Source: Umbilicaria muhlenbergii (Eukaryota > Ascomycota > Lecanoromycetes > Umbilicariales > Umbilicariaceae). From it: 64,000 bases of DNA. Both the position numbers and the translations under genes were made by a program. Position 1 is the stretch's first letter, and every line of letters begins with the position of its first letter. Positions 48,907 to 64,000 of the stretch are shown one piece after another. The stretch covers positions 3,071,088-3,135,087 of the forward strand of contig KK106984.1 of assembly GCA_000611775.1 (NCBI GenBank), read 5' to 3'. The notes under the pieces are model-generated. The model did not search any database. It worked only from the letters and a program-made list of their open reading frames with translations, and had not been told where the DNA came from.

Positions 48907-51084
48907 CTAAGCTTGCGGAGCTATATCTGCTTGCTGAACGGTGTCAAATTCTGCGCGGACTGTCATTCGCCATCTCTTTCCCCCAATGAACTTCGTTTGC
49001 TGATCCTCTGAGACAGGGTTCGAGACTCGAGTACCCTTCTGATCCCGCTCACCCCTTGGGTCATGCACGCCATCAACGTACTCCACATACGCGCAGGTGT
49101 TCCCCTCTTTATGACATCTATCACAAGCGTATGTTGTGCCGTCCTCTGTTATGCTGAATTTGGATTGACGCTTGCCCATGGCTTCATGAAGACAATTCCG
49201 GGTAAGAAGTTGACGGCTTGGAGGACCACTAGCCATTGTGTCAAGCAGAGTGTAGGGTTGCTGCCGAAAATCTTGATCATCTTTGCATCTTTGCAAGGCA
49301 GCTCTCAGCCAGACATCCTCTTCTGCAGTCCAATCCGTTGGTAGCGCAATGGCGTTGTATATTTCAAGGATCGTCTTCACTTCCGTGGACTGTGGAGGGT
49401 GTGTGATATGTGCAGACTGCTGCGACAGACCCTTCATGCTGCTGAGTGTTCTTTTCTCATCATCTGCTGTAAAAGTGGGAGCAAAGGGCTTCTGAAGTGC
49501 TGACTTGCTTCGCTTTGCTGCTGGTAGTTTCTGCAGTGAGGATTGCAAGTTCAAGGACCTCTTCTGCAGGGGATGAGGTTGTTCCTCTGTAGCAAAGTCC
49601 CGTGCTTTACCAGACAATTCCTCTGCTAATGATGCTCTTGCCAGAAGATCCTCCTCTCTTCGCTCAAGTAGAGCTGTTTCTTCTCTGATCAACACTTTGT
49701 GCTCCGCCATCTTTGCTTTATAGCTGTCTAGGCTACTACTCAAGCTGTACATAAGCTCTCCCTGAACGCGGTGAAACTCCTGCCTGCTAACCTGCATCTG
49801 AGATGCCTGGTTTGCACAATACTCATCTGCCTTGCGTCTCATATCATTGGAGTATGCATCTGCCCTGAGACGTACTCCTTGCGCTGCCTTCATTAATCGG
49901 TTATACTCACCCTTGTTTTCCTTTGTCCATTCCGTCATTCGTTCCATCAAATCAGCATTCATTGACAATAACGGCGCAAATTTTGCCTCCAAAGCCTTCT
50001 TCTCCGCAAGGTCTCTCAAGGTATCTCTGATCATCTCATGATTGATTGCATGTTGCTCTTTGCTAGCTTTTACGAGCGCCATGTGTTGGCCGACTGTTGT
50101 TTCAAGCCTCAGTTCCCAAGTCCTCATCGTGGTCTCTCGATCTATTATGGCTGCTTCCCGGCTTGTCACAGCAGTTGCTCGATCAGTGATGGCTGATTCC
50201 TGAGCTGTCACTGCAGTTTCTCGGTCGATCATGACTACTTCCCAATCCGCCATAGTTGTTGCTCGCTTGGTCATCGCTGACTGGTGGTTTCTCATTGCAG
50301 TATCTCGTTCCGTGATAGCCAATTCTCGATCTGCCATTGCAGCTTCTCGGTCTGTGATGACTGTTGCCTGAGTCGTAATGATAGCCTCCTGCCCCGTCGT
50401 AATGAGCTCCCGATTCATTATGGCAGCCTCACGCTCGGCGGAGGCAGAGTCTCGACTCGTTATGGCAGCCTCCCGCTCTGTAGAGGCGGAGTCTCGAGTT
50501 GATATCGCAGCCTCTCGCCCACTTGCAGCCGTCTCGCGACTTAAAACAAGAGATTCTCTTTGAAGGGTGCTCTGATATCGGAAGGTCAATCTTATCTCAA
50601 GTTCCTTGCCAGCCTTCCTAGCTTCCCGTGCGCACCGTTCTTCACCAATGGCAAGCGCCTTCTCCCGTATGCTTAGCTTCTCTTTCTCAAGTGCAATGAA
50701 ATCTCTCTCCCTGGTAAGCTTCGCGGTTTGATCGCTCTCAGCTTTGATAAGCTGATTTTCGTGGTCGGTCCTCTCCTGTGCAAGCCTGAGCTCATGCTCC
50801 GTCCTCTCCTGTCCAAACTTTTCAGCCTGTGCTCTCTTCTCCTTTGCGATTCGTGACTTGACGGTTTGTGCCTCCGTAACCAAGGTATGAAGCCCCGCGA
50901 GACTGTGATCACATTGTTCCTTCCATGGTTCTAGGAGGTTGTTAAGGATTTGTTGCCTTACATCTGCATTGCTGGTTGGTAACCCGCCGAGAATTCCCCT
51001 GCAGCTATCGATCTTCCGTGCCACTTTACCAAGGCTTTCTGGGACTGTAGTGACTGATAGAGATTCAGTGCTCATAGAACTCAT
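48907..51084 (-). CDS. Heptad-repeat coiled-coil protein with C-terminal Cys motif
   Basis: A single-exon frame of 725 residues. After an N-terminal segment of 75 residues comes a charged helix (75-175) with QERT/E repeats. From about 178 to 325 lie roughly 21 seven-residue units without a break, each close to AA(I/M)xxRE; examples are AAISTRD, SASTERE, AAITSRD and TAVTSRE. A second helical region follows (330-510). The C-terminal 180 residues hold a compact part with a SANT-like helix (DWTAEEDVWLRAALQRCK), a Cys motif (CDRCHKEGNTCAYVEYVDG) and GKRWRMTVRAEF. I do not recognise a named family. The C-terminus is the likely folded, conserved part and the rest a long rod. It is divergent from the ubiquitin-like-domain gene, 204 bases apart. 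Alternatives are a scaffold or a nuclear protein. The function is unknown. Confidence 0.8.
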   Translation of the reverse strand: MSSMSTESLSVTTVPESLGKVARKIDSCRGILGGLPTSNADVRQQILNNLLEPWKEQCDHSLAGLHTLVTEAQTVKSRIAKEKRAQAEKFGQERTEHELRLAQERTDHENQLIKAESDQTAKLTRERDFIALEKEKLSIREKALAIGEERCAREARKAGKELEIRLTFRYQSTLQRESLVLSRETAASGREAAISTRDSASTEREAAITSRDSASAEREAAIMNRELITTGQEAIITTQATVITDREAAMADRELAITERDTAMRNHQSAMTKRATTMADWEVVMIDRETAVTAQESAITDRATAVTSREAAIIDRETTMRTWELRLETTVGQHMALVKASKEQHAINHEMIRDTLRDLAEKKALEAKFAPLLSMNADLMERMTEWTKENKGEYNRLMKAAQGVRLRADAYSNDMRRKADEYCANQASQMQVSRQEFHRVQGELMYSLSSSLDSYKAKMAEHKVLIREETALLERREEDLLARASLAEELSGKARDFATEEQPHPLQKRSLNLQSSLQKLPAAKRSKSALQKPFAPTFTADDEKRTLSSMKGLSQQSAHITHPPQSTEVKTILEIYNAIALPTDWTAEEDVWLRAALQRCKDDQDFRQQPYTLLDTMASGPPSRQLLTRNCLHEAMGKRQSKFSITEDGTTYACDRCHKEGNTCAYVEYVDGVHDPRGERDQKGTRVSNPVSEDQQTKFIGGKRWRMTVRAEFDTVQQADIAPQA

Positions 51085-51288
51085 CGTGAGGATCTATATC
51101 TTTGAAGTGCTTCAGTACTGAGGACAACACAGGTGCTGTGCTGGTAAGGTTGCAACTCGTCAAAAGGGGCTACGGGCGTGGTTACCCGTAAGTCTGCCCG
51201 CAACCCTAAGTGACAACCCCTCTGATAAACCCTCAGACAACCTCTTTGACATTTCTCTGCTTGAAGCGCTGCCAACATCATTTACAGA
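51085..51288. promoter_or_regulatory. Divergent promoter of the coiled-coil and ubiquitin-like-domain genes
   Basis: Only 204 bases separate the two start codons, so the genes are likely to share control elements and be co-expressed. No TATA box or repeated motif is evident. Confidence 0.5.
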
Positions 51289-54312: not shown

Positions 54313-54689
54313 TATAGGGGAAGGGGGTGTACACCTATCACCTCCCTACACATATTAATTGAGCTTAGGGTTAGGGTTAATACTAGCTTGTGACAGGACT
54401 TTTGGTGCCAACCGCAGTAGAGTAAGGCCAGCCTGAATTTTTCACCCACGTTCTTATGGTAGCCTGATTCAGTAATGGTCGCCTTGTTTTGTGTGTTGTT
54501 GGCCTTACCTTTCGAACGGGCGCTTTCGAAAAGCTCTTCTCTTCGTCAGCGCCGATCATCAGTTTGTGGCATTCTCAATTACTGGAAACGGAAGAAGTTT
54601 GTTCTACTAAACCCTTGAGAACTGCTAGCTTCTCCCTCGGTCGAAGGAGGAATGAGCAATGGTAATAGCTAAAGTCTAGCCAACCTAGT
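54313..54689. other. Spacer with a telomere-like repeat
   Basis: About 380 bases between the membrane-protein remnant and the metabolite cluster. Apart from the TTAGGG repeat nothing is recognised. Confidence 0.5.
54365..54379 (+). repeat. Interstitial telomere-like repeat (TTAGGG)2TTA
   Basis: Two and a half perfect units of the canonical fungal telomere repeat, about 50 bases beyond the truncated end of the DUF3433-like remnant. Fifteen bases is short, so chance is not fully excluded, but its place at a gene breakpoint is suggestive. Confidence 0.6.
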
Positions 54690-56070
54690 CTAGGGCGTAT
54701 CACCTCCTGCCTTGGAGCCGGCGAACATCTGATATATTCCACGCTGGAAAAGAACGCAGAGCTTTTGTATCGACCAGTCGCCGGGAGTCATAAGCTGAGG
54801 CGCTACGAATCCGCAGAGACCTTTCTCCCGATCAATGAACTAACAAGTCAGCGTTGACCAGACAGCGTATGAGGGGTGGACGTACCCAAACGATGTTCGG
54901 CATCCCTCCCCAGAGCACGGTGTTCTTTCCCATCCACCCGGGGTACTCATCCATCGACAGGATGCCGCCGAGACTCCAGCTCTTTTGGCCAGACACTGGA
55001 ATACTCATTCCATACAAAAGGTTCGCTTGCTCGTCCTCATCCAGCAGCTTCTGCAGCGCCATTCTACTCATTTCGTTTAGTTGAGGTGCAAACAGCTCTC
55101 TATACGAATCTTTATGCAGCAATCTTTCATCTTCTCGCAATACCGCTTGCAGAAGAATCATGAAGTCTCGCGCACTACCAAACGCCCCTCCGCCACCCAG
55201 GCAATCGCGGCTCCCGTTTATAATGTCAAAGCCGGCAAGCGGCACAGCCTTGCCGCTACCGGAAGGATTCCTCATGCTCATATCTGCCGTCCTGTGCTGC
55301 ATATCCGCTCTTTTGCCGGGCCAAAAGGTAGTGTCTTTCATGCCAAGGGGATCCCACACGTGCTTCGCCAAATACGCTTCAAGGGTCTCGTCAGTAGCGC
55401 GCTCAATCATTTTCCCTGCCCAGTCGGACCCTGGGCCGTACATCCAGCCTGTTCCAGGCTCGAAAAGAAGGGGGTTGTTGCAACGTGCCTCTATCGTGGG
55501 GCCTGACCAGACTCCTTCTCCACGACTTGTTCGCCATTTCTGCAGAAGGGGACTTGACGCGTCATAACACAGTCCAGAGCAGTGTGAAAGTAGCTGCCTG
55601 CGAGTGTCGTCACACTTGATTCAATGCAAGGAATACCATAGGTTCCTCACCTCAGACTTATAGCCATAGTCTTCCGCTTCAAATGGGGTTTTCCTGTGTC
55701 GTCGATGCCGGTGATGATTTCTATGCTCCCCAATTCTGGTAGAATGTTGGAGACATCCTCGTCGAGACTCAACAGCTTCCGCTCTACGCATTGTAAGGCC
55801 GCAATGGCTGTCATAAGCTTCGTGCACGATGCTATGGAAAGCACGGTATCTAGTTTGAGGGATTGCTTCGATGACTCGGGCTTCGTCGAACTGAGGCCCA
55901 TTGTTTTTGCATAATTGAAATTACCTAAACAGGAAGATCAGAGGCTTGAGCTATGACGAGAAAAGGCAATAAACAGCATACGTACCTTCCTTGTCTGCTG
56001 CTAACAGAATCACTCCAGGTAGCTCACCAGATTCGCAGGCGGTATGGAAGGCTTCTTCAAACAAAGACAT
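54690..56070 (-). CDS. LovD-like acyltransferase / serine beta-lactamase-fold hydrolase
   Basis: Four exons on the minus strand, 56070-55986, 55924-55651, 55597-54886 and 54839-54690, give 406 residues, close to LovD (413). The class C beta-lactamase SxxK motif is SIASCTKLMTAIAAL, with Ser61 as nucleophile and Lys64 as base. The second catalytic region is GWMYGPGSDWAGKMIE, with Tyr173 in place of the Tyr of the YxN motif. ISLRQLLSHCSGLCYDASS is joined across intron 2 and is typical of the family. The C-terminal half has SLGGILSMDEYPGWMGKNTV and ends in VAPQLMTPGDWS. Fungal members transfer polyketide acyl groups or hydrolyse esters. Position beside a reducing polyketide synthase, a P450 and an AF380-like protein supports an acyl-transfer role in one pathway. 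No signal peptide, so it should be cytosolic. Confidence 0.9.
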
Positions 56071-56587
56071 AACCGTCATGGAAAAGCAAAAATGTTTACC
56101 CACAAGCAGTTCGCAGCTACACTAGGGTGGCAATGAGGTGGCTGCACATCAACAATGCTCTTCCAGACATCAATTGTCAACCCCGGTAGTGGAACTGAAT
56201 TCGCTTTGTGAGAGAGTGTATTGTTACTGGCGCACAGTGACCCGAGTCCCGACCATGGGATTGCACTTGTATTGCACGTCGGTGAACACTAATTGAGGGC
56301 AATAACAGATCTCCTTTTGCAAACCAGTCATAGGCTGAGTAAGAATAATTCTGCCAAAGCTGAAACCATCTTCTTAGTCAGTAAGGAGGCGTAAGCATAT
56401 GCAGGGTGAGTAAAACGAAATACGGTAAGCTAGCATCCACGTACTCAGAATTACCTACAGTATTCTGAAAGATTCTATGACATCCTTTTCAGTATTTTAG
56501 ATCTTCCTTCATCATCGGAATATTGTGCTGGTATTTCGAGAGTTGTTTGTACTACAACAGAAGGCTGGCTATAGATCACAAATCGCA
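56071..56587. promoter_or_regulatory. Divergent promoter region of the acyltransferase and P450 genes
   Basis: About 520 bases between two divergent cluster genes. No Zn2Cys6-type palindrome (CGG-Nx-CCG) stood out by eye. An alternative upstream start for the P450 would need a non-ATG codon and is not favoured. Confidence 0.45.
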
Positions 56588-58360
56588 ATGGGGTTTTCTA
56601 TCGAAATTCGGACAGACCTTTTTCAATGCTTGGAATCGCTTCTTTCGCACAAAGTGACCCTTGCCGTTACTCTTTATCTATTTTATCTAAGTATCCTGCT
56701 TACCTACCGCCTATACTTGAGTCCACTTGCAAAGTTTCCAGGACCGAAGCTTGCTGCCGGGACCGGTTGGTACGAGACATACTACCAATTAGTTAAAGGG
56801 GGAGGTGGTCAATTCACATTTCATATAAAAAGCTTGCATGAGCAATATGGCATGATTCTCTTCATTTCATTTACTTTCTCCGCAAGGCTCAGCGATTCGT
56901 CCCGTGCAATGGTGTTCTAACAGATGTGGTAGGACCGATTATTCGCATCACCCCCTGGGAAATTCATATCCACGATCCAGACTACTACGAAACCATCTAT
57001 TCGTCATCTCAAGCTTTTGATAAGCCGGACTCTGTGGCCCACTGGTCCGGAATACGGAATGCCACGTTCACAACTCCAGGGCATGATCTCCATCGATTAC
57101 GCCGGACGGCTATTGCTCCCTGTTTCTCGAAGCGTAAAGTTCGGGGAAAGGCTCCTTTCATTCAGAGCCAGGTTGACAAGATCTGCGCTCGAGTTGGAAA
57201 TGAATATGCCGGGACAAATGACGTGCTTATCTTAGATGATATCTTCGCATGCTACGCGGCGGACGTGGTTCTTTATTACTTTTTTCTCCAGTCTTATGGA
57301 TTCCTGGACAGCCCGAATTTCGATTGCCCTTTCGCGCAATCAATGAAAGGTTTTAAGTCTATGGCGCACCCTTCGGCTCAATTTCCCTGGATACCTTGGC
57401 TGGCAAATCAGCTCCCGGAATTCTTGGTGTTGTACTTGCAACCACCGTTGGCTGCTATCATCCAAATGCAGAATGTGAGGACCATCCTCTCCTACTTATA
57501 ATTCATGTGCTAAATGAGACCTAGGAGATAGGGACCCAGATTCAAAGCGCTTTGCATCACAAAAACATGGATAAAGACTTTAAGTTACATGGGACAGTCT
57601 TTGACAAGCTCATGGAATCTGATCTACCACCTCAGGAGCTATCAGCTAAGCGTCTAAAGGATGAAGCGACGGGTCTATGTGGAGCTGGAATCGAAACAAC
57701 AAAATGGACCCTCGCGGTAGCGTTTTTCCACATTATCGATAATCCTCCTGTCCACGAGCGTTTACGCCAAGAACTGGTTGATGCTATTCAAGATCCCGCA
57801 GATCCACCACCTTTGGCACAGCTCGAGCAATTGCCTTATCTGATGGCGTGCATCGAAGAATGTGAAACATCCCTTCCACAATTGCTACAGGCATCTTTTC
57901 TAATCTAAATGTGCTAACTTTTGTCCTCCTTTCAGCTCTCCGCCTCTCCTACGGTGCTGTAGCACGCTCTCCGCGCATCTGTGATTGTCCTCTGCAGTTT
58001 GGCTCATGGACGATTCCCCCAAGGGTCCTTGTGAGCATGGATAGTTGGGACATGCATCATGACGAGCATGTCTATCCGGACAGCTTCGCTTTCAAGCCTG
58101 AACGGTGGCTTAATGATCCGAAAGGGCCAGATGGCCGGAAACATCTGCAGCATTACTTGACTTCTTTTGGCAAAGGAACCCGCATGTGCCTAGGCATGAA
58201 TTTGGCTTATGCAGAGATTACGATGGCCATAGCTTCCCTGTTCAGGCAGTTTGAATTTTCGCTCTTTGATACGGACAGGTCTGATGTTGATTGTTACAAG
58301 GATGAGATAGGACCGGTTCCAAAGCCTTGGACAAGAGGGGTCAGGGTCACCGTGAAATGA
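56588..58360 (+). CDS. Cytochrome P450 monooxygenase, CYP58-like
   Basis: Four exons, 56588-56849, 56924-57474, 57525-57861 and 57936-58360, give 524 residues. A membrane anchor (VTLAVTLYLFYLSILLTYRLY, about residues 24-44) is followed by the Pro-rich hinge KFPGPKLAAGTGWYETYY and, later, RITPWEIHIHDPDYYETIY. The I-helix oxygen-binding motif is GAGIETT. The K-helix ExxR (EESLR) is formed only when exons 3 and 4 are joined. The PERW-like FKPERW is present, and the heme loop is FGKGTRMCLG with ligand Cys468. This layout resembles the CYP58 group (trichodiene-oxygenase-type annotations). It should sit on the endoplasmic reticulum and oxidise the polyketide product. Intron 1 (56850-56923) would begin with GC instead of GT; no GT donor fits, so either it is a GC-AG intron or the donor is mutated. 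Confidence 0.88.
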
Positions 58361-58496
58361 TGCTATGCTGCTGAGCAGCAATTCAATCAGTATATCGGCT
58401 CTTAGAGCCTAGCAACGACTAAGACATAGACGCTAAACAAAGTTTGTACTCAATGGAGAGAAATTGTTAGGACACAATTTCATCGGACGTTGATAC
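58361..58496. other. Short spacer between convergent genes
   Basis: 136 bases between the ends of the P450 and hydrolase genes, containing both 3' regions; AT-rich with no strong hairpin. Confidence 0.5.
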
Positions 58497-59483
58497 TCAA
58501 GCGCTGAATTCCTTGTTACTTAATCTTCCATGAAGAACATCGTGAACGAAGCTGATCTGCAGCTTCATCAGATTTGGAAGATGCTCGCCTTCTAGAATAT
58601 CCATATGACCTCTGCTAGGCTCGACATGCAGTCGCTTAGGTCCAGACAATCTCTTAAAGTGACCGAGCTGGGCCTCGGGAGGAGAAAGCTTGTCGAGTTC
58701 GGGTACTATGAACATCACCGGTGTTGGATCTAAATGGTGCCATAGTGTAAATGGCTGCCACATCACCATTTTGTAATACGTTTGGATCGTGGTGCGGTTC
58801 ACATGGTTGGGCGCAATTTCTTTTCCGGCGCTTACAAGTTTTGCATACTGCTCTTGATCGATGCCAACACCAAAGCCTGCAGGATTCTCGCCTCGGTCTG
58901 TCAACATAGGTAGATACAAAGGCGGATTTCCTCTCGCTTGTGATTCTCGATCCCTCATACATTTGGCAAGCACTTTAGGAAGCTTTTCTGGAGTATATTC
59001 GAATCTCGTCATAGGGCAGACGGCAATGACAGCTCGTGCCCTTTTGTCGAGCGACGCTGCGCAGAGCGCGACCGTGCCTGCAAAGGACATGCCCCAGATA
59101 GCCATCTGGTCTGGCGCTACAGTTGGAAGACTGCCGAGGAAGCTGAGTGCATCTGAATAATCCTCCACTTGTTTCACTGGATCGATGTCGTTACGAGGAG
59201 TACCCTCGCTGAGACCAGTGGTTCGGGGATCATAGAGGAGGGCCGTAATCCCCGCGTGTTGAAAGGATTCTGCGACCTCTGGGAGCTTCATCATCTCTTT
59301 GACACAATTAAACTAGATTGCAATTAGACGAGGGTATGCGAGCGAACAGATGTATTGTAAGAGGGAAAGACTTACGCCCGGAGAGATTACAATGCCAGGG
59401 CCTTTCTCGACAGCAGGATATAAGCGTCCACTAAGAGTGATCCCGTCAATGGATTTGAAGTGGACTTCATTCTGAGGTAACAT
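58497..59483 (-). CDS. Alpha/beta hydrolase of the AF380 polyketide-transferase type
   Basis: Two exons, 59483-59376 and 59312-58497, give 307 residues. The start ATG 59483 (MLPQNEVHFKSIDGITLSG) leads into VISPGFNCVKEMMKLPEVAE across the intron. The motif ALLYDPRTTGLSEGTPRNDI is characteristic of the fungal cluster proteins related to AF380, the polyketide transferase of fumagillin biosynthesis. The nucleophile elbow is AIWGMSFAGTVAL with Ser112. Asp and His of the triad lie in VPELDKLSPPEAQ and PSRGHMDIL. Members catalyse release or transfer of polyketide chains from a reducing synthase, which fits the neighbouring synthase gene 670 bases away in divergent orientation. Simple esterase activity is the alternative. 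No targeting signal is seen. Confidence 0.88.
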
Positions 59484-60155
59484 ATTCAGAACATAGAGCT
59501 GCTCAGGGGTGCTAGGAAAGCAAAAGTTCCCTCTCGAAACCTTGGACTTGATGTTCTGAAATGCGGTGATTTGTGGGCTGAGCCACAAGTGTGTCAGAAG
59601 ACTGGCTTACTGCTTGCTTGTCACGTGTAGAGAACCTGATTGATGCTTACGTGAGAAGCACTCACTGTCCTCGACTTTAGTATGTCATGCCTTACGAGGA
59701 TTGGTATGGATTCTCTCGTAAGATCCTTCTAAGTTAATTTTTACAGGATCCGCTGGAGCTTACAGTCTGAGCTGACTGTCTTCCTTATGCTACCTTCAGT
59801 ATCTGCACATACGATGCCTTTCATGCCAATCACGTATTACCTTTTGCCCTCTCAGAAGTCAGGCCATTTCCTGCCAGTGATTGAGACCTGGGAGAGCCTG
59901 CCCAATGGGACCTCTAACCGCTTACTATAATCAGAGCTCAAAGGATCCTCTTGCAGCTTTGGAAGATTGCAAGGATCCAAGCCCGTTATTCTGCATAGTA
60001 CAAAGCTGTGTGACGACATCCTTGCCTTACTCATGCCGCGTTCCATCTAACAATCAAATCGCTCTCGCACCTTCGACTATTGTTCCCATATCTTTCTGCC
60101 ATTATGAGAACAACGTGAACAAGGACCCACGAAACAAGGCCGGATCGATACAATT
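59484..60155. promoter_or_regulatory. Divergent promoter region of the hydrolase and polyketide synthase genes
   Basis: About 670 bases between two cluster genes in opposite orientation. The minus-strand frame is open for about 100 bases upstream of the hydrolase ATG but has no other ATG, so it is treated as leader. No regulatory motif was identified with confidence. Confidence 0.45.
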
Positions 60156-63100
60156 ATGACCAGAGATACCTGCCAGCCGGGCGACGAGAGATTAGATACT
60201 GCGTTCAACTCAAACTATGTTCAAGACCCAGTGGCCGTTATTGGCTTGTCTTGTCGTCTTCCAGGCTGCAACAATTCTCCCACTGCTCTCTGGGATTTTT
60301 TGAAGCGAGGCGAATGTGCCAGAACCGAGCCTCCAGAGTCAAGATTCAATCTCAAGGGCCATCACGACGCTTCTAAGAAGCCTAGGACCATGAGGGCACC
60401 CGGCGGAATGTTTCTCGAAAATCTAGATCCTCGGGATATAGATGCTCAATTCTTTGGCCTTTCTAAAGTGTACGTGGAAACGGTGGAACGGATAACAGCT
60501 TCGTTCCCTCCCTCTCATAGAGGGGTCGTTTACCCTGATACAGAATGGAACTGATCGCTTGAGGGTTTCAGTGAAGCAATATCCATGGATCCTCAGCAGC
60601 GCCAACTTCTTGAAGTCGTGTATGAAGGACTTGAGAATGCTGGCATCAGTCTCGAAGCGTTGAAGGGAAAGTCTATTGGCTGTTTCGTCGGCTCTTACGC
60701 TTCAGGTAGGAACTACTAGGATTCTGTTTCCCTTTCAGCATTTTAAGATATATCCCAGATTATGGCGATTCCCAATCGCGTGATCCCGAAGATAAAGCGC
60801 CGGCTTCAACGGTTGGCGTTGGCCGCGCAATGCTGAGCAATAGAATAAGTCACTTCCTGGACATTCACGGACCAAGGTAACCCTGGACTTACCTTGTGTA
60901 GACTGGCCAATTTTAATTTCATTCTCTAGCATGACCATCGACACCGCCTGCTCGGGTGGCTTGGTCGCTGTGGATGTTGCCTGCCACTATTTACAGACGA
61001 GGGAGGTCCAAGCCGCAATTATCTCTGGTTGTAACTTGTACCTCAGTCCAGAGCACACTATGGATCCGTCCATGAGTGGCGCTGTATCTATTACAGGAAG
61101 ATGTCATACATTTGACACGAAGGCCGATGGCTATGTCAAGGCGGAGGCAGTAAATTCAATTATCCTAAAACGTCTCGATGATGCTATCAAGGACCGTGAC
61201 CCTATCAGAGCTGTCATACGTGGCTCTGCCACCAATAGCGATGGATGGACCGCTGGAATTGCTAGTCCTAGCTCAAGCGCTCAGGCTCTAGCAATCTACC
61301 GAGCTTACGCCAATGCGGGCATTTCTGATTTTAACAGCACTTGTAGGTCATGAGATTCTGATATCCCATTTCCTTGCGCTAAAACTCGCCCGTAGCTTAT
61401 CTAGAATGCCATGGCACCGGTACCCCGGCGGGTGATCCCATCGAAGTTGCTGGGGTTTCATTTGTATTCGGTGCAACACGCTCCCCTGACAAGCCTTTGA
61501 TAATCGGATCTGTACGTGTCATTTCTAACGACATCCGCTGAAACTCCCTGTAACTAACGATATTTCATATAGATCAAAAGCAACATCGGTCATTCAGAGC
61601 CTGCAGCCGGTATATCTGGGCTGTTAAAGACAATCTTAGCGCTTGAAAACGGCGTTATCCCTGGAAACCCTACCTTTGAAGTTGCTAACCCTGAGAGTAA
61701 GTTCGAATGGCAAAACCTTGGGTGCATTTACTCACCGGGAATGGTAGTCGATTTTCTTGCACAGAAAGTTCGTGCCTCGAAAGTGGCGCTCCCGTGGCCA
61801 AGTGCAGCATTCCGACGAGCATGCGTCAATTCTTTTGGATACGGTGGTTCAAATGCTGTCGTCGTCTTGGACGAAGCGAGCAAATATATCAAAGAAGCTA
61901 CACCGCATCATGTCTCTTCCTACTTCTCGGAAAGTGATGATATATTCGTCGACGAAGTTTCTGATCGACCACACGTTTTAGTGTTCTCGGCGAATGATGA
62001 AGCTTCTCTCAAAGCCTATTGTGGTGCTATGAACAGACACTTGATTAATCCCAGAGTTAATATCAAGCTATCTGACCTAGCGTTCACATTATCGGAACGG
62101 AGGACTCGTCATTTCTACCGCGCCTACGCCGTTGCTCGAAATACCAGGATAGACGAATCATCTTTTGTATACGGGAAGGGACGTCCTAACCCCCCTCGAG
62201 TCAGTTTTGTCTTCACAGGTCAGGGCGCTCAGTGGCCACAAATGGGCAAAGACCTCATCAATACTTTTCCTGCCATGAAGTCATTCCTCGAGCACTTGAA
62301 CTCTGAGCTTCAGAGCCTCCCAGACCCGCCAAGGTGGTCATTGCTAGGTGAAACAATGTCCAGATTTTGTCTTTGTAATGTAGCTAATAATTACAGAGGA
62401 ACTAGTAGAACCGAGGAAACCTGAACAACTTCGACTTCCAGAATTCTCGCAGCCTCTGATCACAGCAATACAACTCATGATCCTTGAAATCTTCGCCAAG
62501 TGGGGTATTCGTCCCCAAAGCGTTGTCGGCCACTCTTCTGGAGAGATTGCAGCGGCGACTTCTGCGGCCTTTTTGACGCCTAAGGAGGCAATCAAAATTG
62601 CCTATTACAGAGGAAAAGCTGCTGTTCTCGCCCGAGACGAATCCGTGGATGCAACTGGTATGCTTGCTATTGGACTCGGCCCGGAACAGCTCAATTCATA
62701 CACCTTCGCGTTCGACGTGCAACTTGCATGTATCAACAGTGCTAGCAGTGTCACTGTATCCGGGCGTCTCGGAGATTTGGAAGAAATTAGGGCACGTCTT
62801 CAAGCCGAGGGCCACTTCGCCCGAGTCTTACAAGTAGACTTGGCCTATCATTCAACTTTCATGACCAATATTGCCACGCATTATAAAGAGCTACTTCTTC
62901 AGAACTGCGAGCTGCCATTACGTAGAAGCGGAGACGTAACTATGTTTTCAACGGTCACAGGACGCCGCGTTGATGGCCAGGTTTGTGATGCCAACTACTG
63001 GGAACAAAATATGGTCTCTCCTGTACTATTCAAGCAGGCTGTCGAGGAAATGGTCTCCGGCGAGAATGGCCCGGATTTCCTGGTTGAGATTGGTCCCAGC

Positions 63101-64000
63101 GGTGCACTAGCTGGTCCTATTTCACAGATCAAGAAAGAGTTAACAGGACAGCGGTCTTCTATCGAGTATTACCCGGCTTTGAAGCGGGGTACAAATGCTG
63201 CGAATGCGTTGTTTGACATAGCGGGACGAATCTTCATTTCAGGAGTTCATGTGAACATGTCAGATGTCAACGAAGACAAATTGAACCCTGGACGTCCGTC
63301 GACAATTATCGACCTCCCAAACTACGCATGGAACCATTCGATAAAGTACTGGCATGAAAGTGAATCCAGTAAAGATTGGCGTTTCCGGCGATTTGTTCAT
63401 CATGACCTACTTGGAAGCAAAATTCTGGGAACCTCCTGGCATGCACCTTCATGGAGGAAAATTATACGAGTGCAGGACTTACCGTGGCTGAAAGACCATA
63501 AGGTATACATCACTCTGGCTTTAAAACAATCGAAGATGCTGATTATTAGCAGCTGGGGCGCGAAATTGTGTTTCCTGCGGCTGGATATTTGGCAATGGCG
63601 GTCGAAGCTCTGTATCAGACAAGTGTGTCTATTGGCAAAGTTGATGAGAATTGCAAAGTCAACGAACTCTGCTATAGACTGCGTGATGTCGTTTTCGCAA
63701 AGGCTATGGTTCTGGAAGAAAACGTCGATGGGTTGAAGGTCATGTTGACACTCACTCGGCTTCAAAACGCCTGGCACAAATTCAGGATCTCCTCGTCAAC
63801 TAAGGATATGTGGATCGAGCACTGTAAAGGGTTGATCTGTATAAGGAGACGTTTCAAAGAAGGTACTGCTAGTGAGGCTGCAAAGAGCAAGTGATTGGGA
63901 CGCTAATCTGACGCCAGACGAGCCAAGAGCTGTTCTTAAACCACTCAAGTATAGTACCCCTGCTCGTTTGTGGTATAAAGCTATGCAAGATGTCGGTTAC
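60156..64000 (+). CDS. Highly reducing type I polyketide synthase, N-terminal KS-AT-DH part
   Basis: Nine exons are seen, 60156-60469, 60572-60705, 60759-60876, 60930-61342, 61396-61511, 61573-61696, 61748-62347, 62397-63502 and 63553 onward; the gene continues past the window. The ketosynthase starts at [14 protein letters not shown] and has DTACSGG (Cys196), [12 protein letters not shown] and [19 protein letters not shown], the full catalytic triad. The acyltransferase has [17 protein letters not shown] and [10 protein letters not shown] (Ser653), with AYHST downstream, as in malonyl-specific fungal modules. The dehydratase starts at HHDLLGSKI and has WLKDHK joined to [19 protein letters not shown] (His974). 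The intron at 61697-61747 is a multiple of three and lacks stops, but removing it restores the usual NPEIDF motif. The open frame changes near 63.88 kb; an intron or sequence error there is unresolved. It is the core enzyme of the cluster. Confidence 0.95.

Follow-up and report, generated by a model that had tools for sequence, protein, structure and literature searches.

Which product is encoded by a compact group of four genes of polyketide families in Umbilicaria muhlenbergii, and how would its two acyl-handling enzymes, an α/β hydrolase and a LovD-like protein, contribute to it? The genes lie at the right end of a stretch of 64,000 nucleotides (the window; C4:3071088-3135087, in a genome of 34.8 Mb in 7 contigs), and the sequence was also read past the right end of this window. 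The reading we favor, with a probability of about 0.5, is an intact, compact polyketide cluster in which the chain is released as a medium-ring lactone.

Gene models and domain architecture

Splice sites were set by consensus, frame and family motifs, and each of the four genes yields a single open spliced frame with 0 internal stops. From left to right, the locus comprises a LovD-like serine acyltransferase/esterase gene on the minus strand (54690-56079; 409 aa; four exons at 54690-54839, 54886-55597, 55651-55924 and 55986-56079; Pfam beta-lactamase, 1.7e-38), a cytochrome P450 gene on the plus strand (56588-58360; 521 aa; four exons at 56588-56849, 56933-57474, 57525-57861 and 57936-58360; Pfam p450, 4.3e-57), a gene for an α/β hydrolase of the 7d78/GrgF family on the minus strand (58497-59483; 307 aa; two exons at 58497-59312 and 59376-59483; Pfam Abhydrolase_6, 2.1e-9), and the 5′ part of a highly reducing polyketide synthase (HR-PKS) gene on the plus strand (60156-64000), which runs on to window-relative position 68482 (C4:3139569). 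These intact splice models and their Pfam domains confirm the first-pass annotation, which had placed four such genes here and had expected the PKS to continue beyond the window, as it does for 4482 bp. The four strands alternate as that annotation described, but the arrangement is one of two divergent pairs: 508 bp separate the start codons of the LovD-like and P450 genes (intergenic region 56080-56587) and 672 bp those of the hydrolase and PKS genes (59484-60155), while 136 bp lie between the stop codons of the P450 and the hydrolase. The first P450 intron (56850-56932) has an apparent GC-AG boundary, and a branch-like CTAAC precedes its acceptor. A PDB search returned distant matches for this protein (best 5.5e-24) and was of no help in defining its subclass, given in the first-pass annotation as CYP58-like; the family-level assignment obtained here is Pfam p450.

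The complete HR-PKS gene has 19 exons and 18 introns and encodes 2412 aa. A TAG-CAG pair at 63547-63552 offers two acceptors, and choosing the downstream one, which the paralogue on contig C3 suggests, would give 2411 aa; the least certain introns are 63503-63549, 63863-63917, 65102-65191 and 66956-67013. The domain order is KS-AT-DH-vestigial MT-structural KR-ER-KR-ACP, with Pfam matches to KS (3e-66), AT (3e-48), two DH halves, ER, KR (7.2e-56) and ACP, uniting in one protein the KS, AT, DH, ER, KR and ACP that mark an HR-PKS. A PDB search with the protein did not help in subclassifying it. Eight of the nine catalytic motif patterns familiar from such enzymes were found. The literal DH pattern HxxxGxxxxP has no match in the HR-PKS, the stretch in question reading DHK(Q)LGREIVFP, and the same form of the motif (DHKMGAEIVFP) is carried by the C3 PKS. 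Extending the annotation over the whole PKS, as had been proposed, thus recovered ER, KR and ACP domains but no recognizable methyltransferase: for residues 1291-1480 of the MT region Pfam gave no hit with E values as high as 10 allowed, and the SAM motif pattern was not found in that region, so that a functional C-methyltransferase, which is optional in the HR-PKS family, appears to be lacking. The MT region of the C3 PKS is alike by eye, and both copies are without a recognizable MT, each with an ER of its own. Since the MT region shows neither a SAM motif nor a Pfam match, an unmethylated product is expected.

A diverged second module in the genome

A diverged second module is located at C3:3008950-3032671, containing a P450, an SDR, an FAD-linked (BBE) oxidoreductase, a weak MFS match that falls under the family cut-off, a hydrolase and an HR-PKS. 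At E ≤ 0.001, the window hydrolase has at least one other relative in the genome, the C3 hydrolase, which is 57.9% identical (C3:3022036-3023130) and sits divergently beside its PKS across an intergenic region of about 1.1 kb; both family hydrolases found thus adjoin related HR-PKSs. The C3 and window PKSs are 44-80% identical in aligned blocks. In the KS region, the C3 PKS is 57-78% identical to the window PKS against at most 48% for other PKSs, and in the structural KR-ER region the values are 51-70% against at most 56%. The P450 comparison has a smaller margin, in that the C3 protein is 47.7% identical to the window P450 and the two others compared reach 45.1% and 42.4%; nonetheless, a quartet tree of four P450s taken from a longer match list, with rows anchored on the window protein, joins the window and C3 P450s with an ultrafast bootstrap of 100. 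On C3, the P450 and the hydrolase are separated by about 11 kb, an interval that holds the SDR and the FAD-linked oxidoreductase. A second weak P450 match occurs on C3 at 3019142-3019432 (30%, E 5e-5).

Because C3 keeps the PKS, the hydrolase and the P450, these three genes appear to travel together while the other tailoring genes differ. The first-pass annotation had grouped the genes into one cluster, a grouping that synteny tying the P450 or the hydrolase to unrelated neighbors would have contradicted; instead, synteny links the PKS, hydrolase and P450, although not the LovD-like gene, and we regard it as very probable that the three form one cluster. The genome therefore carries the PKS/hydrolase/P450 module twice, in diverged form and with different tailoring genes in each copy, and the C3 locus is the fuller candidate lactone cluster of the two. 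The GC3 of the hydrolase gene is 0.490 in the window and 0.814 in the C3 paralogue, a large gap for two copies of one gene, which perhaps reflects drift beside an AT-rich tract or different origins.

The intergenic regions were also compared. Within the window cluster, the two divergent regions have six 9-mers in common, against an expectation of 3.1 and a maximum of 11 among 200 samples, and they share no 10-mer; this lack of a shared promoter motif was counted against the full reading. The hydrolase/PKS intergenic regions of the window and C3 have in common the 12-mer AAGGATCCTCTT, which has 5 occurrences in the genome; it was not counted as a promoter signal, because it was noticed post hoc and because two regions of these lengths (672 and 1139 bp) would have a 12-mer in common by chance about 9 times in 100.

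The hydrolase and its proposed role in chain release

Among solved structures, the hydrolase is nearest to 7d78 (2.1e-75), followed by GrgF of the gregatin A pathway (6lzh; 3.8e-66), with identities of 42.7% over 286 aligned residues and 40.3% over 283, respectively. The first-pass annotation had named it an AF380-like transferase; these nearest structures place it better in the 7d78/GrgF family. The PDB entry 7d78 bears the title 'DltD domain-containing protein' and is, as we take it, DcsB, a medium-ring lactone cyclase. The nucleophile is Ser112 in a GMSFAG motif, and the aligned Asp and His are kept, so that the protein combines its relation to 7d78 with a Ser-His-Asp triad; it also forms a divergent pair with an HR-PKS, both in the window and on C3. 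Serine is likewise the nucleophile in the C3 hydrolase and in 7d78, the latter with the same Ser motif, whereas GrgF, which shares the Asp and His, has a cysteine (GLCFGG).

This difference bears on a gregatin-like outcome, in which the hydrolase would produce a furanone by linking two chains of the same PKS through a C-C bond. Such an outcome would suit an identity to GrgF almost equal to that to 7d78 and the presence of a single PKS in the cluster, GrgF likewise having a single HR-PKS as its partner. The replacement of Cys by Ser, however, argues against chain fusion. Moreover, according to the account in PMC8902786, GrgA produces one of its two chains with the help of a trans-acting enoylreductase and the other without it, whereas the ER here lies within the PKS and a separate ER gene was not seen. 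We therefore consider C-C fusion highly improbable. Lactonization, hydrolysis and transfer stay unseparated by the nucleophile, since a Ser triad serves all three.

A closer competitor is that the hydrolase would transfer the PKS chain to a separate acceptor alcohol, in the manner of Fma-AT/AF380 of the fumagillin pathway, or would hydrolyze it to a free acid, without lactone formation. Fma-AT, which passes a PKS chain on to fumagillol (PMC8902786), is comparable in that it is described as a stand-alone enzyme handling acyl groups for an HR-PKS, and the Ser triad fits this activity as well as lactonization. The hydrolase's protein family is said to include both transferases and hydrolases, and the best NCBIfam name for the protein itself, below the cut-off, is the lactonase UilS; both points were weighed against the lactone, as was the near-equal identity to the chain-fusing GrgF. 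In contrast to the fumagillin system, terpene partner genes are not seen near the cluster, and no acceptor-making gene, whether a terpene cyclase or a second PKS, is present among the annotated genes nearby. The gene order also fits a lactone cluster, as set out below, and we rate transfer or hydrolysis without a lactone as rather unlikely.

That lactone cluster is the one for aspinolide in Trichoderma arundinaceum, in which a P450 (TARUN_4153, 513 aa), an α/β hydrolase (TARUN_4154, 306 aa) and the asp2 PKS (TARUN_4155, 2338 aa) are adjacent (PMC9592644). The asp2 end of the cluster, as given in that gene table, and our locus share the P450-hydrolase-PKS order, with proteins of 521, 307 and 2411-2412 aa here, a match by class, order and length. 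According to the same source, the 10-membered lactone is no longer made once asp2 is deleted, and one mutant shows a joint rise of asp1, asp2 and the ten intervening genes; the account assigns ring closure to ASP2 and leaves the role of the hydrolase aside (PMC9592644). The SDR and FAD-linked (BBE) oxidoreductase of the C3 module also belong to classes that appear in the aspinolide gene table. Further, the aspinolide cluster, as described, holds an acyltransferase gene, and the lactone that it makes bears an ester side chain. Pinolidoxin carries an ester side chain as well. It is described as another 10-membered macrolide (PMC6891577). There are also differences: the aspinolide cluster contains a further PKS, asp1, that supplies the side chain, as well as three P450s and a neighboring Zn2Cys6 gene, and its acyltransferase has 500 aa as opposed to 409 aa in the LovD-like protein. 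Instead of an asp1-like diketide synthase together with an asp2-like pentaketide synthase, there is one HR-PKS here, and no regulator or transporter was recognized among the ORFs scanned near the cluster.

The P450-hydrolase-PKS order shared with aspinolide serves as the tie-breaker from which we infer a lactone rather than a free acid or a transferred chain, and the full reading is held at the probability given above because the hydrolase is nearly as close to GrgF as to 7d78. In the favored pathway, the ACP of the HR-PKS would carry a growing chain, presumably short, that is reduced and unmethylated. The serine hydrolase of 7d78 type would then take this chain and close it onto one of the chain's own hydroxyls, releasing a medium-ring (e.g. 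10-membered) lactone, whose ring the P450 could subsequently hydroxylate or epoxidize. Finally, the LovD-like enzyme would most likely attach a small acyl group, delivered by CoA or a carrier protein, to a free hydroxyl as an ester.

A product of two acyl parts, as the first-pass annotation had suggested, is possible. One form of it would have the single HR-PKS supply both halves, with the hydrolase closing a longer chain and the LovD-like enzyme esterifying a shorter chain from the same ACP; if true, a four-gene pathway would do the job for which aspinolide employs two PKSs. Counted against this variant is the fact that GrgA and CalA, the two known cases of one PKS making two chains, switch through trans-acting partners in the account cited (PMC8902786), of which none is seen here, and it must be considered improbable. 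Every part of the cluster is of a known kind, and the whole resembles known fungal lactone pathways while being otherwise an ordinary orphan cluster. Among the matches listed from open-access titles and abstracts, none described a cluster in which a LovD-like gene accompanies a 7d78-type hydrolase and a single HR-PKS. The two copies of the module form a natural pair for asking how this hydrolase family sets release as lactone, acid or transfer.

The LovD-like gene and the cluster surroundings

The LovD-like protein is closest by E-value to the PDB chain Pc15g00720 (6kjc; 4.5e-78), presumably a lovastatin esterase, followed by LovD (4lcl; 2.5e-77), and its identities are 38.0% to LovD, 35.9% to Pc15g00720 and 39.8% to a paralogue on contig C1. 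Four LovD residues, Ser76, Lys79, Tyr188 and Trp390, have known roles. The first three are kept, as the Ser64-x-x-Lys67 motif and Tyr176, whereas Gly380 occupies the column of Trp390, a position that is also non-Trp in Pc15g00720. The first-pass assignment to the LovD family therefore holds (38.0% identity), but acyl transfer does not follow from it, since the LovD homologue CalJ of the calbistrin pathway cannot acylate and instead hydrolyzes an ester made by CalD (PMC8902786). LovD-like genes occur in HR-PKS clusters, as in the case of rasfonin, for which the literature proposes Rsf3 as an acyltransferase. Unlike the LovD, CalJ and Rsf3 systems, our locus has no clustered partner diketide synthase: the KS matches listed nearby on C4 are the cluster's own PKS and a PKS 81-87 kb leftward. 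The latter (C4:3044287-3049902) reads by eye as non-reducing, for which reason a link to the cluster was rejected.

These features bring in the alternative that the LovD-like gene encodes an esterase or is a bystander, and that the product receives no ester. CalJ and the proximity to Pc15g00720 speak for it, as does the best NCBIfam match, below the cut-off, to the methyl acetate hydrolase AcmB, together with the Trp390 substitution. LovD-like genes are found at no fewer than four places in the genome; the neighbors of the copy on C1 look by eye like a P450, an Fe-S assembly protein and a kynureninase, apparently housekeeping genes, and no PKS match lies near this copy among the matches listed. 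Given these neighbors, LovD-like genes seem to occur outside PKS clusters as well. Furthermore, the C3 cluster is without a LovD-like gene, its single weak match (E 6e-4) falling within the P450 locus, and the GC3 of the LovD-like gene is 0.576 as opposed to 0.489-0.494 in the other three cluster genes; this absence and this difference were also counted against the full reading. What ties the LovD-like gene to the cluster is its position, including the region common to it and the P450. On the other side, it is the immediate divergent neighbor of the P450 (508 bp), its Ser-x-x-Lys motif and the counterpart of Tyr188 are kept, and Pfam gave no match for the four ORFs between 48.9 and 54.2 kb to its left, so nothing else claims the gene. 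For the LovD-like enzyme, hydrolysis or the lack of any role is only a little less likely than transfer, and an esterase or bystander is a serious contender, if somewhat short of even odds. With no second PKS clustered here for a side chain, the locus bears on whether a LovD-like enzyme can work without one.

Further left, four of nine long ORFs have a Pfam match (NAD kinase, dual-specificity phosphatase, PTPA and Anp1) and five have none. Rfam and tRNA scans of the whole window gave 0 matches. To the right of the PKS, where the first-pass annotation had allowed for more genes, one SDR gene was seen (window-relative 68846-69829, minus strand), followed by AT-rich sequence. This SDR is weakly like that of C3 (33% over 127 aa) and was not counted among the cluster genes. 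From about 71 kb (window-relative) rightward, GC falls to about 30%, and another five samples of 10 kb each, reaching as far as C4:3261087, have GC contents of 30.8, 42.6, 32.9, 31.8 and 31.1%. A long AT-rich tract, mostly of about 30% GC, thus extends over C4:3142087-3261087, starting about 2.5 kb past the PKS; it could be RIP-affected or centromeric, and by eye its short ORFs resemble decayed retrotransposon remnants. On the left flank of the cluster, a 728-aa ORF on the minus strand (48910-51093) without a Pfam match contains 42-bp tandem repeats and extended repetitive segments that look coiled-coil-like, and a short TTAGGGTTAGGGTTA-like run at 54366-54384 is telomere-like while being internal to the contig.
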